NCBI GenBank assembly: GCA_030148915.1 | Contig: JASBSN010000080.1 | Coordinates: 1 to 32,617, forward strand | Direction of reading: 5' to 3' | DNA: 32,617 bases | DNA from: Thiogranum sp. | GTDB taxonomy: Bacteria > Pseudomonadota > Gammaproteobacteria > DSM-19610 | Notes under the pieces: model-generated | The model's input: only the letters and a program-made list of their open reading frames with translations | Told to the model about the DNA's origin: nothing | Databases searched by the model: none | Program-made: the position numbers and the translations under genes | Shown here: positions 12,565-25,284 of the stretch, piece by piece | How the letters are laid out: every line of letters begins with the position of its first letter | How positions within the stretch are numbered: position 1 is the stretch's first letter

Positions 12565-13392
12565 ATGAATGATCCACGTATCGCTTTTGTCGGCGCGGGC
12601 AACATGACCCGCAGCCTGATCGGCGGACTGATAGCCGATGGCCGCAACCCCGCCCGCCTGTGTGTCTCAGACCCTGACACCCATCAGTTAAGCGCCGTGG
12701 CGAGCCGCTTCCAGGTGCATACCGATACCGACAATCAGCGGCTTACGGAAAACTGTGATGTCGTCGTGCTGGCCGTCAAACCGCAAGTGATGGCCACCGT
12801 CGCCCGCGCTCTGGGGCCCAGCGTGCAACACCGCCAGCCTCTGGTTATTTCCGTTGCCGCGGGCATCCGCACGGCAGACCTGGAGCGCTGGCTGGGCGGG
12901 CGCTGTGCGCTGGTACGTTGTATGCCCAATACGCCCGCCCTGGTGCAGAGCGGCGCCACCGCACTGTTTGCCACCGAGGGCGTTTCGCCCCCCCGGCGGG
13001 ATCTGGCCGAGAGCCTCCTACGCGCCGTGGGCCTCACCTTGTGGGTTGAGGACGAAGCGCTGATGGACGCCGTCACCGCAGTGTCGGGCAGTGGGCCGGC
13101 TTATTTCTTTTTGCTCATCGAGGCGCTGCAGGAGGCCGGTGAGGCGCTCGGCCTGGGGCGGAAAAGCGCCCGGCTGCTGGCCCTGCAGACTGCCTTCGGG
13201 GCGGCTAAAATGGCGCTGGAAAGCAGCGACGATGCCGCCATTCTGCGCCAGCGTGTCACCTCGCCCGGCGGCACCACACAAGCCGCTCTGGAGGTACTGG
13301 AATCCGGCGCCATGAAAGCGCTGTTGCAAAGCGCCGTGACAGCCGCGCGCGATCGATCCAGGGCTTTGGCACAACAACTCGGAGCCGACTGA
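12565..13392 (+). CDS. proC: Pyrroline-5-carboxylate reductase
   Basis: ProC reduces pyrroline-5-carboxylate to proline with NAD(P)H, the last step of proline synthesis. From the ATG at 12565 the protein has 275 residues and begins MNDPRIAFVGAGNMTRSLIGG, with the Rossmann GxGxM motif in the first 15 residues. Other family marks are the LAVKPQ stretch, RCMPNTPALVQSGATAL, the SGSGPAYFFLLIEAL motif near residue 170 and VTSPGGTTQAALEVLE near the end. A longer frame back to 12460 adds 35 residues that do not look like ProC. It shares one base with the yggT start (TGATG). Confidence 0.96.
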   Translation: MNDPRIAFVGAGNMTRSLIGGLIADGRNPARLCVSDPDTHQLSAVASRFQVHTDTDNQRLTENCDVVVLAVKPQVMATVARALGPSVQHRQPLVISVAAGIRTADLERWLGGRCALVRCMPNTPALVQSGATALFATEGVSPPRRDLAESLLRAVGLTLWVEDEALMDAVTAVSGSGPAYFFLLIEALQEAGEALGLGRKSARLLALQTAFGAAKMALESSDDAAILRQRVTSPGGTTQAALEVLESGAMKALLQSAVTAARDRSRALAQQLGAD

Positions 13393-13958
13393 TGGGCAGC
13401 ACCTACATCACCACCCCCGTTGAATTTCTCATCAATACGCTGTTCGGGCTTTATATCCTGGCGGTCATGCTGCGCTTCCTGCTGGCCCTCGTGCGCGCGG
13501 ATTTCTATAATCCGGTGAGCCAGTTTCTGGTCAAGGTAACCAACCCGCCGCTGAAACCCCTGCGCCGCGTGCTGCCGAGCATCGGCAAACTCGATACCAG
13601 CGCCCTGTTGCTGATGCTGGCCCTGCAGATGGCCTCGTTGGCTATCATCGCCTTGCTGCGCGGCGCCCAGCTGTCGCCGGGCGCGCTGGTGATTATCTCG
13701 CTGGCTGAACTCATCGGCCTGTTCCTCAACGTGCTGCTGTTTGCCATTCTCATCCAGGTCGTCATCAGCTGGGTCAACCCGGGCACCTATAACCCCGCCG
13801 TCGCGCTGCTCTACAGCCTGACCGAACCGGTGCTGGGGCCTTGTCGGCGCCTACTGCCGCCGATGGCCGGTATCGATCTGTCTCCCCTGGTGGCGCTGAT
13901 CGCCATCCAGCTGGTGAAAATGCTGCTGCTACCGCCCCTCTACGCGTTGGCCACCTGA
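13392..13958 (+). CDS. yggT: YggT family membrane protein
   Basis: This is a 188-residue integral membrane protein of the YggT family, with two similar halves and about four membrane helices. Each half shows the helix-then-loop pattern LRFLLALVRADFYNPVSQFLVKVTNPPLKPLRRVLPS and VVISWVNPGTYNPAVALLYSLTEPVLGPCRRLLPP (given here as overlapping family features around residues 22-58 and 120-156). Family members have been linked to osmotic stress and cell division, but no firm biochemical role is known. The proC-yggT pairing is widespread. Its TGA stop at 13956-13958 is followed at once, in the same frame, by the DUF167 gene. Confidence 0.93.
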   Translation: MGSTYITTPVEFLINTLFGLYILAVMLRFLLALVRADFYNPVSQFLVKVTNPPLKPLRRVLPSIGKLDTSALLLMLALQMASLAIIALLRGAQLSPGALVIISLAELIGLFLNVLLFAILIQVVISWVNPGTYNPAVALLYSLTEPVLGPCRRLLPPMAGIDLSPLVALIAIQLVKMLLLPPLYALAT

Positions 13959-14249
13959 CTGTCCGCCGCCTGGTACCACTGGCAGGGCACCGCCCTGATC
14001 CTCCACCTGCGAGTCCAGCCGCGGGCCTGCCGCACCGAAATCGCCGGTGTCTATGGACAGCAGCTGAAAATCCGCCTGGCAGCTCCCCCCGTTGACGGCA
14101 AGGCAAACCAGACGCTATTGAAATTTATAGCGAAACTTTGCCGTGTCGCGCCCGGGCAGGTCACCCTTCTGAGCGGCGACAGCGGACGCGATAAGCGTAT
14201 TCGCATCGACCAGCCGCGCTCGCTGCCCGAAGGAATCACGCCCCCCTGA
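13959..14249 (+). CDS. DUF167/YggU family protein with a CTG start
   Basis: A 96-residue frame without ATG, GTG or TTG start encodes a clear DUF167 protein. It shows LHLRVQPRACRTEIAGVYGQ near residues 15-34, then LKIRLAAPPVDGKANQTLLKFIA and a C-terminal SGDSGRDKRIRID. All the family's conserved positions are present from the very first codons. Its first codon CTG (13959) lies directly after the yggT stop and in the same frame. No usable standard start exists nearby, so translation must begin at CTG or another near-cognate codon, or continue through the yggT TGA to give a YggT-DUF167 fusion. The family's function is not known. Sequence identity as DUF167 is clear; the start is inferred. Confidence 0.82.
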   Translation: MSAAWYHWQGTALILHLRVQPRACRTEIAGVYGQQLKIRLAAPPVDGKANQTLLKFIAKLCRVAPGQVTLLSGDSGRDKRIRIDQPRSLPEGITPP

Positions 14250-14311: not shown

Positions 14312-14338
14312 TAAAGAGTGAAGCTTAGTGGCCGCTAG
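14312..14338 (+). promoter_or_regulatory. Possible sigma-28 (FliA) promoter
   Basis: TAAA at 14312-14315 is followed after exactly 15 bases by GCCGCTAG at 14331-14338. The FliA consensus is TAAA, 15 bases, GCCGATAA, so all of the -35 core and six of eight -10 positions match at the right spacing. It lies about 70 bases before the dynamin-like GTPase, on the coding strand. No flagellar gene is present in the window, so chance is possible. Confidence 0.35.
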
Positions 14339-14348
14339 GACGGTGGAT

Positions 14349-14411
14349 ATGCATGACTTCAGCCCGAAACCGTGGGCTGAAAAAACCACCGACCGGGACA
14401 CAGTCGCATGA
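14349..14411 (+). CDS. Possible 20-codon leader frame before the GTPase
   Basis: An ATG at 14349 opens a 20-codon frame (MHDFSPKPWAEKTTDRDTVA) whose TGA overlaps the GTPase ATG in an ATGA arrangement. An AGGA stretch lies about ten bases before it, a better ribosome site than the one before the GTPase. An inverted repeat (TTCAGCCC / GGGCTGAA) lies inside it. It could couple translation to the GTPase, or be chance. Confidence 0.22.
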   Translation: MHDFSPKPWAEKTTDRDTVA

Positions 14412-16399
14412 AGCAAGACCAGTTCGACCAGAGCCTTCACTCGTACAGCGCTTGGCGGGCGGAGCTGATCCAGACCGTCGAGCGGTACCAGGCGTGGCTG
14501 GAGACCCATGACCTGGCATCGCCGGAACAGGAGTTCCGTATCTTCGAAGCCATCGATGCGCTACGCCGGGATCGCTTGACGCTGGCCTTCGTGGCGGAGT
14601 TCTCACGCGGCAAAACCGAGCTAATAAATGCGCTGTTTTTCTCCCACTACGGGCAGCGCTTGCTGCCCTCGGAGGCCGGGCGCACCACCATGTGCCCGAC
14701 CGAACTGTTCTTCGACTCGGTCAGTGAGTCCGCCTACATCCATCTGCTGCCGATTGAAACGCGCCTGCAGGATAAAACTATCGCCGAGTTCAAGCTCGAA
14801 CCGATCCATTGGAACCAGATCGCGCTGGATGTGAACGACACCGCCCAGGTCGCCGAAGCGCTGCACCAAGTCATACGCACCCGCCAGGTGTCACTCAAAC
14901 AGGCGCGTGAACTCGGTTTGTACGACGAAAGCAGCGACCCGTATTTTCGCGCTCATCAGAGCACCCCGGCGCAGGTGGAGATCCCGCACTGGCGCCACGC
15001 GCTGATCAGCTTCCCGCATCCGTTTCTCCAGCAGGGCCTGGTGATCCTGGACACCCCGGGACTCAACGCCATGGGCAACGAACCGGAGCTGACGCTCAAC
15101 ATGCTGCCCTGCGCCCAAGCGGTGCTGTTCCTGCTGGCGGCCGACACCGGCGTGACCCGTAGCGACATGGAAATGTGGCAGCACCACGTCCACGCGCTGC
15201 GCGGCCAGGCTGGAAATAATCTGATCGTCGCGCTGAACAAAATCGACACCCTGTGGGACGAACTCAAGGAGCCCGCGCGAGTTAACGCCAGCATCGAGTC
15301 ACAGCGCCTGGCCAGCGCCGAACAACTGCAAGTCGACAGCGCGCGCGTTTTTCCGATCTCGGCGCAAAAGGGGCTGATTGCCAAAATACGTGCCGACGAG
15401 CGCCTGCTTGAGCGCAGCCGGCTGGGCGAGTTGGAAGCTTTTCTGGCGCAGACGGTCCTGCCGCACAAGCGGGAGATTATGCGTGGAAACGTGGTCGTAC
15501 AGATCGGCGCCATGATCGACGAGAACCTGGCCCTGCTCGAAGCCCGCAAGCAGGCGGCCGGGGATCATTTGGCGGAATTGCGTTCGCTGCGTGGCAAGAA
15601 CGCCGATGTGATCGTTCATCTGATGTCCAAGTCGCGCGAGGAACAAGCCGCCTACCTGCGCAATGTGGAAAGTTTTCAGAACAGCCGGCGCCTGCTCCAG
15701 ACTCAGGCCCGCAACATGCTCGAGGCACTGAGTCTGGACAGTGTCGACAAACTGATCAACAAGACCCGCGCAACCATGACCCACAGCTGGACGACCACCG
15801 GCATGAAACGCGCTATGGAAACCTTTTTCGACGGCGCGCGCGATGCCATGGAGCAGGTCAGCGGTCACGCCGAACAGACGCGCATGCTGATTCGCGCCAC
15901 CTATAAGAAATTTCACGAAGAGCACGGCCTACCGCAGCTCGCGCCGAAACAATTTTCCACCGCCTCTTACTCGACGGAACTGGAACGACTCTATCAGGAG
16001 GCAGATGCCTTTCGCCGCAGTCCGGCCACGGCCATGACCGAACAGTCCTTTGTCATCAAGAAATTTTTCATCTCCCTGGTCAGCCACACCCGCAGCCTGT
16101 TTTTCAAGGCCAACCAGGATGCCAACAATTGGCTTAAGGAAGTCATGAACCCGCTGGTGCGCCAGATCAAGGAACACAAGACGACCATGGAAAAACGGCT
16201 CGACACACTGCGCCGTATCAGCGAATCACGCGATACCCTGGACAGTCGCATCAAAGAGCTGGAGGTTGGCTTGCGAGACACACGCCAGCAGCTGGACACG
16301 CTGCGGCAGCTGCGTCACGCGCTCGACTGCAATGTTTCCGCGCCGCCCCCGCCCTCTTCTGAGAGCAAGGCACACTCGAGCAGCGAAGTGGCGGTCTGA
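14408..16399 (+). CDS. Dynamin-like large GTPase
   Basis: This is a 663-residue protein of the bacterial dynamin-like group. The GTPase motifs are in order. G1 is AEFSRGKT at residues 63-70, with Ala where most P-loops have Gly. The switch region has TTMCPTEL at 93-100, G3 is DTPG at 215-218, G4 is NKID at 277-280 and G5 is SAQ at 318-320. The long C-terminal half is helical. It includes a weakly hydrophobic, aromatic patch around residues 545-565 (VIKKFFISLVSHTRSLFFKA) that could touch membrane, and a coiled coil at about 600-645. Such proteins remodel or guard membranes in other bacteria, but I cannot name a role here. It occupies the place between DUF167 and DUF4426 where Pseudomonas has metX-metW. 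The tail ends with a Pro- and Ser-rich stretch. Confidence 0.88.
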   Translation: MKQDQFDQSLHSYSAWRAELIQTVERYQAWLETHDLASPEQEFRIFEAIDALRRDRLTLAFVAEFSRGKTELINALFFSHYGQRLLPSEAGRTTMCPTELFFDSVSESAYIHLLPIETRLQDKTIAEFKLEPIHWNQIALDVNDTAQVAEALHQVIRTRQVSLKQARELGLYDESSDPYFRAHQSTPAQVEIPHWRHALISFPHPFLQQGLVILDTPGLNAMGNEPELTLNMLPCAQAVLFLLAADTGVTRSDMEMWQHHVHALRGQAGNNLIVALNKIDTLWDELKEPARVNASIESQRLASAEQLQVDSARVFPISAQKGLIAKIRADERLLERSRLGELEAFLAQTVLPHKREIMRGNVVVQIGAMIDENLALLEARKQAAGDHLAELRSLRGKNADVIVHLMSKSREEQAAYLRNVESFQNSRRLLQTQARNMLEALSLDSVDKLINKTRATMTHSWTTTGMKRAMETFFDGARDAMEQVSGHAEQTRMLIRATYKKFHEEHGLPQLAPKQFSTASYSTELERLYQEADAFRRSPATAMTEQSFVIKKFFISLVSHTRSLFFKANQDANNWLKEVMNPLVRQIKEHKTTMEKRLDTLRRISESRDTLDSRIKELEVGLRDTRQQLDTLRQLRHALDCNVSAPPPPSSESKAHSSSEVAV

Positions 16400-16416: not shown

Positions 16417-16476
16417 CCAAACGCGCGCCCCCACCCCCGGGCGCAGCGCCGCTGCGCCCGCTCTGCGCGCGTTTGG
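16417..16476. repeat. Nested inverted repeat after the GTPase gene
   Basis: A perfect 12-base outer pair (CCAAACGCGCGC at 16417-16428 and its complement at 16465-16476) encloses a perfect 8-base inner pair (GGGCGCAG at 16439-16446 and CTGCGCCC at 16452-16459). The inner loop is 5 bases. The structure is very G+C rich and could act as a transcription terminator or as an mRNA end stabiliser for the GTPase transcript, although no T run follows it. Confidence 0.6.
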
Positions 16477-16525: not shown

Positions 16526-16972
16526 ATGCTTAAGAAAACCACGATAGCGTTCTGTTTCAGCCTGCTGGCGGCGCTAAGCGCACCCGTGTTCGCCGAGAAC
16601 TCACAGGATTTCGGCGACTATGTGGTGCACTTCAACGCCCTGAACACCACCTACCTGCCGCCAAGTACCACCCGCGAATATGACATCAGACGCAGCAAGA
16701 ATCGCGGCATGGTGAATATCACCGTGCTGTCCAAGACACTCGGCACCGCCGGCAAGCCGGTGGCTGCACAGGTCGGCGCGGTGGCCAGCAATCTCACCGG
16801 GCAAAAACGCACCATCGATCTGCGTGAAATCCACGAAGGACCGGCCATTTATTATATCGGCGACTTCCCTATCACCAACGAGGAGACACTGCGCTTTCGG
16901 GTTAACGTCACGCCGGAAGGCCAGAAAGACACCTACGAAGTGAACTTCAAACAGCAGTTTTTCACCGAATGA
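16526..16972 (+). CDS. DUF4426 periplasmic protein
   Basis: This 148-residue protein has a clear signal peptide (MLKKTTIAFCFSLLAALSAPVFA, written here as residues 1-23, cleaved before ENSQDF) and a single beta-rich domain of the DUF4426 family. Conserved parts include FGDYVVHFNALNTTYLPPS, the KNRGMVNITVLS stretch and the C-terminal TPEGQKDTYEVNFKQQFF. The family has no known function. In Pseudomonas a member lies in the same neighbourhood, downstream of proC-yggT and metXW. A strong AAGGAG ribosome site precedes the ATG by 8 bases. Its 3' end overlaps the convergent gene by 11 bases. Confidence 0.88.
   Translation: MLKKTTIAFCFSLLAALSAPVFAENSQDFGDYVVHFNALNTTYLPPSTTREYDIRRSKNRGMVNITVLSKTLGTAGKPVAAQVGAVASNLTGQKRTIDLREIHEGPAIYYIGDFPITNEETLRFRVNVTPEGQKDTYEVNFKQQFFTE

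Positions 16973-21811: not shown

Positions 21812-25284
<3,473 letters not shown>

Follow-up and report, generated by a model that had tools for sequence, protein, structure and literature searches.

A dynamin-like GTPase gene of Thiogranum stands behind a conserved sigma-28-type site and may belong to the late flagellar genes

We studied a 32,617-nucleotide stretch of DNA from Thiogranum sp. (assembly GCA_030148915.1, contig JASBSN010000080.1; the whole stretch is called the window, and its source genome G000) and, within it, the gene of a dynamin-like GTPase, here abbreviated DLP. A site of the type read by the flagellar sigma factor sigma-28 (FliA) stands upstream of this gene and is conserved among its relatives. 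We believe, with a probability of about 0.5, that DLP is a cytosolic GTPase of the BDLP/mitofusin type, encoded by a late flagellar gene, and that it takes part in the choice between swimming and settling or works at the flagellated pole. This reading builds on the motifs of the GTPase, its fold class, a conserved site of sigma-28 type and core inheritance in the genus, each of which is supported by sequence analysis. A bacterial dynamin is a kind of protein already known, and the conserved flagellar promoter on such a family would be the new element; in the titles and abstract openings listed by searches of open-licence PMC papers, no description of the DLP family or of a sigma-28 promoter for it was recognised. 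The promoter elements and the protein features are as follows:

14312..14316, plus strand: -35 element of sigma-28 (FliA) type, TAAAG, invariant in 15 aligned upstream regions
14331..14337, plus strand: -10 element of sigma-28 type, GCCGCTA, 14 bases after the -35, from the alignment and a spacing peak
14408..16399, plus strand: open reading frame of the dynamin-like GTPase, ATG to TGA, 663 aa, intact frame
14588..14620, plus strand: coding for FVAEFSRGKTE, residues 61-71, of which 63-70 form the Ala-type P-loop, from the sequence and invariant columns
15050..15061, plus strand: G3 motif DTPG, residues 215-218, from the sequence and invariant columns
15236..15247, plus strand: G4 motif NKID, residues 277-280, from the sequence and invariant columns (I279 varies)
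16022..16144, plus strand: residues 539-579, a loop and helix 547-579, candidate lipid or partner surface, from conservation and the model
16148..16327, plus strand: long C-terminal helix, residues 581-640, coiled-coil-like in the model

The region upstream of DLP was aligned in 15 rows, 14 from the genus and 1 from the same family. The invariant columns were CTAAAG, GCCG-TA, the start codon and two lone bases, and nothing more; this near-sole invariance of both boxes is the residue expected from a sigma-28 promoter. The pattern TAAA[GC]-N14-NNCG[ACT]TA was found in 42 of 115 distinct upstream regions (15 from the genus and its nearest relative, and 27 others), and every other spacing from 6 to 24 gave 0–2 of the 115. 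Reversing either the -35 or the -10 box gave 0–1 matches, and the opposite strand gave 0–1. A mismatch score of at least 11 out of 13 was reached by 42/115 upstream regions compared with 1.6% of shuffles, and by 21/77 DLP upstream regions compared with 24/875 upstream regions of other genes at the same loci. The consensus of sigma-28 promoters has CGATA in its E. coli form. The sigma-28 sites printed in one mapping study (PMC4183435) agree with this consensus. The preliminary description of this DNA had given the gene its own upstream signals, and this held for the site at 14312-14337, located between the DUF167 gene and the start codon, and failed for sigma-70, for which the region upstream of DLP had 0 matches (0.7 expected). 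A second conserved box lies about 20 bases 5' of the -35, with CTAA in 14 of the 15 upstream regions and GCTAA in 12. A possible hairpin in the 5' leader (14358-14381) was not significant (z -1.8) and, by eye, not conserved among the 15 upstream regions. We believe that the element at 14312-14337 is very probably a sigma-28 promoter; sigma-28-type regulation of DLP is well supported by these comparisons, and FliA itself would then transcribe the gene.

The flagellin genes of the genus, as standard targets of sigma-28, showed the local promoter form. Twenty-four flagellin-family loci of the genus were fetched, the 13 strongest were examined, and 11 starts were located, all of which (11/11) were preceded by TAAAG-N14 (one N15)-NNCGCTAA. 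The flagellin -10 in the genus relatives is CGCTA in place of the CGATA of E. coli, the same form as in front of DLP; the putative promoter of DLP resembles those of the genus flagellins. G000 encodes a FliA (C87:28033-28692, 272.6 bits, cut-off 189.6) in a cluster that we read as flhA-flhF-flhG-che-mot, the gene names being our own assignment. In G008, a complete genome of a genus relative, TAAAG-N16-CGYTA occurred at 18 sites. Nine of these had a gene no further than about 165 bases behind them, and the products were two flagellins, of which one has a broken frame, two chemoreceptors, GGDEF and PilZ proteins, an SprA-related protein, DLP and a 53-residue open reading frame (ORF). The G008 loci L218 to L231 are candidates for a genus-wide sigma-28 regulon, and the 53-residue product looks membrane-like by eye.

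Sigma-28-like sites were also seen around DLP loci. Such a site preceded pilT/pilU in 8 of 67 upstream regions in neighbour loci, and FliA control of the twitching ATPases is possible in some relatives. Among the 19 other neighbour clusters with at least 10 loci each (DLP apart), 17 had no site, and the remaining two were yggT (2/39) and a DUF4124 gene (4/11). A regular-expression scan of 1172 neighbour ORFs, which had no formal control, gave few GGDEF-like matches as a sign of genes for cyclic di-GMP (c-di-GMP) near DLP.

At the protein level, the Pfam family Dynamin_N matched DLP with 52.8 bits (E 6e-14, cut-off 27), which places it in the dynamin superfamily; in NCBIfam, no family reached its own cut-off. 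The P-loop reads A63-E-F-S-R-G68-K69-T70, and A63, G68, K69 and T70 were invariant among 29 aligned relatives, as were T93, T94, D215-T-P-G218, N277, K278 and D280. DLP thus has the motifs G1 to G4 of the superfamily, with the first glycine of G1 replaced by alanine. The general P-loop rule [AG]x4GK[ST] permits alanine at this position, and since it was present in 29/29 relatives, the Ala-type P-loop is a mark of the family. The dN/dS ratio (nonsynonymous to synonymous substitution rates) against five genus relatives was 0.10-0.15 (dN 0.11-0.20; dS 1.1-1.4, near saturation), and DLP is under purifying selection. The preliminary description had presented the 663-residue product as a dynamin-like GTPase whose P-loop is of the Ala type, with a possible membrane patch, a terminal coiled coil and no assigned role. 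The reading frame, the Dynamin_N match and the P-loop agree with this, a single long, coiled-coil-like helix corresponds to the coiled coil in the model, and the absence of an assigned role is correct. As for the membrane patch, no transmembrane stretch was found in the DLP sequence, and the most hydrophobic 19-residue window (residues 227-246, mean 1.5) lies inside the GTPase domain. Residues 541-560 are the best-conserved part outside the GTPase domain (mean majority share 0.87) and take in the start of the conserved helix 547-579, which is hydrophobic and basic, so residues 539-579 may be a lipid-binding or partner-binding surface.

The AlphaFold2 model of DLP (pLDDT 82, pTM 0.62) has a GTPase domain with a helical bundle or trunk, the fold of the dynamin superfamily, and ends in one long helix at residues 581-640. 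BDLP ranked first both in Foldseek with this model (E 7e-20) and in a profile search of PDB sequences (E 1.2e-10). Structural alignment was run on candidates supplied by Foldseek. The Z scores for mini-mitofusin-1, chain B of 5owv, BDLP and IniA were 25.8, 23.0, 20.9 and 19.7, the root-mean-square deviations (rmsd) were 3.9, 3.7, 5.1 and 5.0, and the aligned residues numbered 336, 311, 369 and 325, respectively, with about 16% identity to BDLP; LeoA gave a Z of 16.5 at an rmsd of 21. We take DLP to be a probably cytosolic, self-assembling GTPase of the BDLP/mitofusin type. G000 has a second Dynamin_N protein (contig C19, L187:4680-6188, 502 aa). Around residues 375-392 this protein is hydrophobic, and its BLASTP alignment with DLP was weak and confined to the GTPase domain.

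The gene has a fixed place among housekeeping neighbours, and proC is also among the genes on its upstream flank. The closest flanks in the window are the following:

13392-13958: yggT, upstream flank of DLP
13959-14249: DUF167 gene, upstream flank of DLP
16526-16972: DUF4426 gene, downstream flank of DLP

DLP is carried by 16 of the 17 genus genomes (G000 included; in G005 and G012 the gene is in pieces at the ends of contigs), and the sole genome without a match, G007, is 82% complete. It was also found in 3/3 searched genomes from the rest of the family. Gene order was read in 14 fetched genus loci, with G005 and G012 not among them; yggT lay upstream in 13/14 and DUF4426 downstream in 13/14, and each exception was a contig end. 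Of the 276 genomes sampled from the class, 78 had matches, or 74 when four genomes with weak matches (G140, G199, G240 and G257) were left out, and 66 of the 74 had one copy. Six of the eight carriers with two or three copies had no FliA over the cut-off (G075, G195, G283, G092, G293 and G268), while G115 and G221 did have FliA; the extra copies may serve other roles. In a wider collection, at least 583 of 592 pattern-matched stretches encoded a DLP relative, and 80 named loci were kept. They belong to Thiogranum, Ectothiorhodospiraceae, Thiohalomonas, Thiodiazotropha, Acidiferrobacterales and Methylococcaceae, together with a few metagenome-assembled genomes with betaproteobacterial labels. 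In several Methylococcaceae loci, DLP lies behind pyrE, often with hemW ahead. Among the neighbour clusters, the names yggS, pyrE, hemW, metX and metW were checked on one member each, and the remaining labels are our assignment. No DLP relative was found in viral contigs or in plasmid and phage collections.

According to the preliminary description, DLP had been inserted into a housekeeping block, where it replaced metX and metW. Neither claim agrees with the loci. The neighbour survey found DLP as a core gene at the same place, between yggT and DUF4426, in the genus, an outcome which that description itself had named as speaking against its view. The order GTPase-metX-metW occurred in 7 of the 80 named loci (L049, L052, L059, L061, L080, L088 and L096), with DUF4426 following in L059 and with profile support for MetX and MetW in L049; no order was read in four loci (L050, L067, L078 and L120), where the ORF caller had missed DLP. 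Because DLP stands directly before metX-metW in these loci, we rejected the replacement, and the genus has probably lost metX-metW. In G000, metX had no match and metW scored 39.9 and 33.4 bits, far under the cut-off of 189.5; MetA (PF04204) was present in 14/17 genus genomes. The gene order and the distribution indicate that DLP is a vertically inherited old resident of a conserved block and a core gene of the genus.

The following feature lies directly behind the gene:

16417..16476, plus strand: strong hairpin behind DLP, with no U-run in the source genome

The hairpin that the preliminary description had placed behind the gene is present, and the region folds over 91 bases with -46.5 kcal/mol (z -4.66). 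In three relatives (L006-L008), a stem and a T-run stand at the same position. The motif CTATAGT was found within 110 bases behind the DLP stop in 13/15 genus and family rows, and we read it as the -10 of a promoter belonging to DUF4426 itself, which makes a DLP-DUF4426 operon unlikely in the genus and family. With the hairpin and this putative -10, DLP appears to form a unit of a single gene, as had been proposed. Elsewhere in the window, 22708-25284 on the minus strand encodes an AlgC-type phosphomannomutase (858 aa). Its first Pfam domain begins at residue 407, so the protein is extended at the N terminus by about 400 residues.

We propose that RNA polymerase with sigma-28 would start at the site 14312-14337 and make a one-gene DLP message. 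A promoter of this type would place the production of DLP late in flagellar building, as a class 3 gene, when the hook is complete and the cell is turning motile. In such cells, DLP would hydrolyse GTP and assemble with itself into a GTP-gated scaffold along the inside of the cytoplasmic membrane, which might tune the switch between swimming and settling, with a part in motility or c-di-GMP control, or might serve the flagellated pole. We also speculated, more tentatively and with the odds leaning against it, that the widespread DLP family has an ancestral and dedicated place in the sigma-28 regulon in much of Gammaproteobacteria, acting at the flagellated pole independently of RdcA and RdcB, either by remodelling membranes or arrays or through GTP-gated control of settling.

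The association between the site and FliA across the class sample is in line with this proposal. FliA status was assigned with the best E-value as a proxy for the cut-off (160 genomes with and 116 without), and the tests of the site against FliA ignore kinship. A site with a score of at least 11 was present in 26/60 FliA carriers compared with 1/14 without FliA (p 0.013), and at a score of at least 10 the counts were 35/60 and 3/14, respectively (p 0.017). A looser pattern, chosen after seeing the data, gave 30/60 and 1/14 (p 0.005). In a FastTree phylogeny of 112 proteins, with several long branches flagged, the site label changed 9 times compared with a shuffle mean of 34, and it was present on both sides of the midpoint. 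This pattern fits an old promoter that was lost in some groups, for example in most Methylococcales.

A number of findings weigh against the flagellar reading. G000 had no strong flagellin match, only one weaker match to Flagellin_N (E 4.5e-22). Genome-wide, the bare pattern was not above its reversed control, with 3 vs. 14 matches in G000 and 18 vs. 21 in G008; many of the G008 sites are therefore chance matches, and single sites mean little without conservation. The strict pattern separated genomes with FliA from those without less clearly (19/60 vs. 1/14, p 0.09), and half of the FliA carriers (30/60) had no site even by the looser pattern. FliA over the cut-off was missing from 14 of the 74 carriers of DLP. 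The sole FliA-minus genome with a site, G091, had two sites of equal score in the scan, and the conserved one, identified by alignment, matched those of two FliA-plus sisters; since it was kept alongside them, FliA was either recently lost or is absent from the assembly. The co-occurrence of DLP and FliA, with one genome per family, was 28/35 vs. 52/106 (p 0.0015) and weakened to 27/34 vs. 45/67 (p 0.25) once genomes smaller than 2.3 Mb were removed (size classes from rounded genome sizes), so we rejected it as a stand-alone argument. The weak co-occurrence and the carriers without FliA indicate that the DLP product is useful beyond flagella. Among the Methylococcales rows, none scored at least 11 except L105 (-35 TCGAG), and the Acidiferrobacterales rows had none; the core function of DLP therefore cannot need the promoter. 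The Foldseek superposition of DLP on BDLP was loose (TM-score 0.41).

E. coli RdcA (YjdA/CrfC) is the nearest precedent and counts in favour of the flagellar reading. PMC6510439 describes RdcA as a dynamin-like GTPase that activates the diguanylate cyclase DgcE via the MASE1 domain of DgcE, and the rdcAB operon as controlled by FlhDC/FliA. The detailed comparison with DLP gave further points against. The hhalign match between RdcA and DLP had a probability of 93 and covered residues 54-340 only, which is the GTPase domain, and BLASTP gave 31% over 132 residues; the two were not homologous over their whole length. An rdcB-like gene was found in 0/17 genus genomes in a search with no positive control, and the gene next to DLP is DUF4426. 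MASE1 was found in 1/17 genus genomes and not in G000 (the control search found it in 4/14 genomes). According to PMC4183435, the mapped FliA site of E. coli sits inside yjdA and drives yjcZ, and a FliA site upstream of yjdA is called wrongly predicted there; our own sequence scan found no good sigma-28 site upstream of E. coli rdcA. With homology limited to the GTPase domain, no RdcB match found and MASE1 in 1/17 genus genomes, DLP may work like RdcA but is not RdcA.

The main rival to the flagellar reading is general membrane maintenance, in which DLP would bind the cytoplasmic membrane via helix 547-579 and tether, fuse or seal it under stress, a role also suggested for other bacterial dynamins, while sigma-28 control would merely add to its supply in motile cells. 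We consider this unlikely on balance. The fold of the BDLP/mitofusin/IniA type, the conserved hydrophobic and basic helix, and the retention of DLP in 14/74 carriers without FliA speak for it; however, DLP has no transmembrane stretch, its lipid binding is only putative, and membrane maintenance does not account for sigma-28-type boxes as the top conserved feature upstream. A different view would keep the protein's role aside and take the upstream element for some other conserved signal, for example an activator site, that resembles a sigma-28 promoter. Single pattern matches are indeed common by chance, and the second conserved CTAA box could belong to such a signal, but the exact N14 spacing across distant families and the flagellin -10 form that DLP has in common with the genus make this explanation improbable.

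Within the flagellar reading itself, DLP might be a direct functional analogue of RdcA, which binds to a diguanylate cyclase in the membrane and increases c-di-GMP as GTP drops. RdcA is, according to PMC6510439, a dynamin-like GTPase of the flagellar regulon, and GGDEF and PilZ genes stand behind sigma-28-like sites in G008. The scarcity of the MASE1 docking domain in the genus, the RdcB result given above and the restriction of the alignment to the GTPase domains make this special case rather improbable too, though less so than the reading of the upstream element as another signal. The preliminary description had also considered phage defence, and DLP could then be an accessory dynamin of phage defence or of vesicle or toxin release like LeoA. 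Weak PADLOC matches (LeoBC 30 bits, LeoA 28 bits) are in its favour, but DLP is a genus core gene with a fixed locus, it is present in one copy in most class carriers, its neighbours are housekeeping genes, and plasmid, phage and viral relatives were not found. On this distribution, the LeoA-like reading is largely refuted and hardly credible, and a mobile or defence unit was rejected.

Finally, DLP was compared with known systems. PDB entries 2j68 and 2j69 are BDLP, which we take to be that of Nostoc punctiforme. DLP resembles BDLP, its best solved relative by profile and by Foldseek, in having a GTPase domain and a long helical trunk, and it differs in the alanine for the first P-loop glycine, in the family signature EFSRGKTE and in a low identity of about 16%. 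Entries 5owv and 5oxf are presumably the bacterial dynamin pair of Campylobacter. DLP has a similar bacterial dynamin fold to this pair and to IniA of Mycobacterium smegmatis, but the window has no second dynamin gene beside it, and the promoter and the host range differ. DLP is a dynamin-like GTPase like LeoA of enterotoxigenic E. coli, to which it has a weak profile match; the LeoA/HP0731 family NF041922 gave 14.4 bits against a cut-off of 325. The gene of LeoA lies on a pathogenicity island (PMC4159319), and DLP, as a core gene of the genus, is not in such an accessory setting. A LeoA-like dynamin of Pseudomonas pseudoalcaligenes has a colonisation phenotype and adjoins a phage integrase, as stated in PMC6344628; we did not use it as a precedent because of this position and its annotation as a LeoA orthologue. 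For many bacterial dynamins no function is known, and their testing starts from guesses about membrane stress, so a conserved flagellar promoter is a concrete cue to study the DLP family in motile cells. RdcA, like DLP, is a dynamin-like GTPase, and PMC6510439 places it with RdcB in the flagellar regulon; for DLP, the sequence gives a putative promoter of sigma-28 type. If our reading is true, dynamin-like GTPases joined flagellar control at least twice, once with RdcA and once with the DLP family, which would hint that GTP-driven assemblies recur in the swim-or-settle decision.

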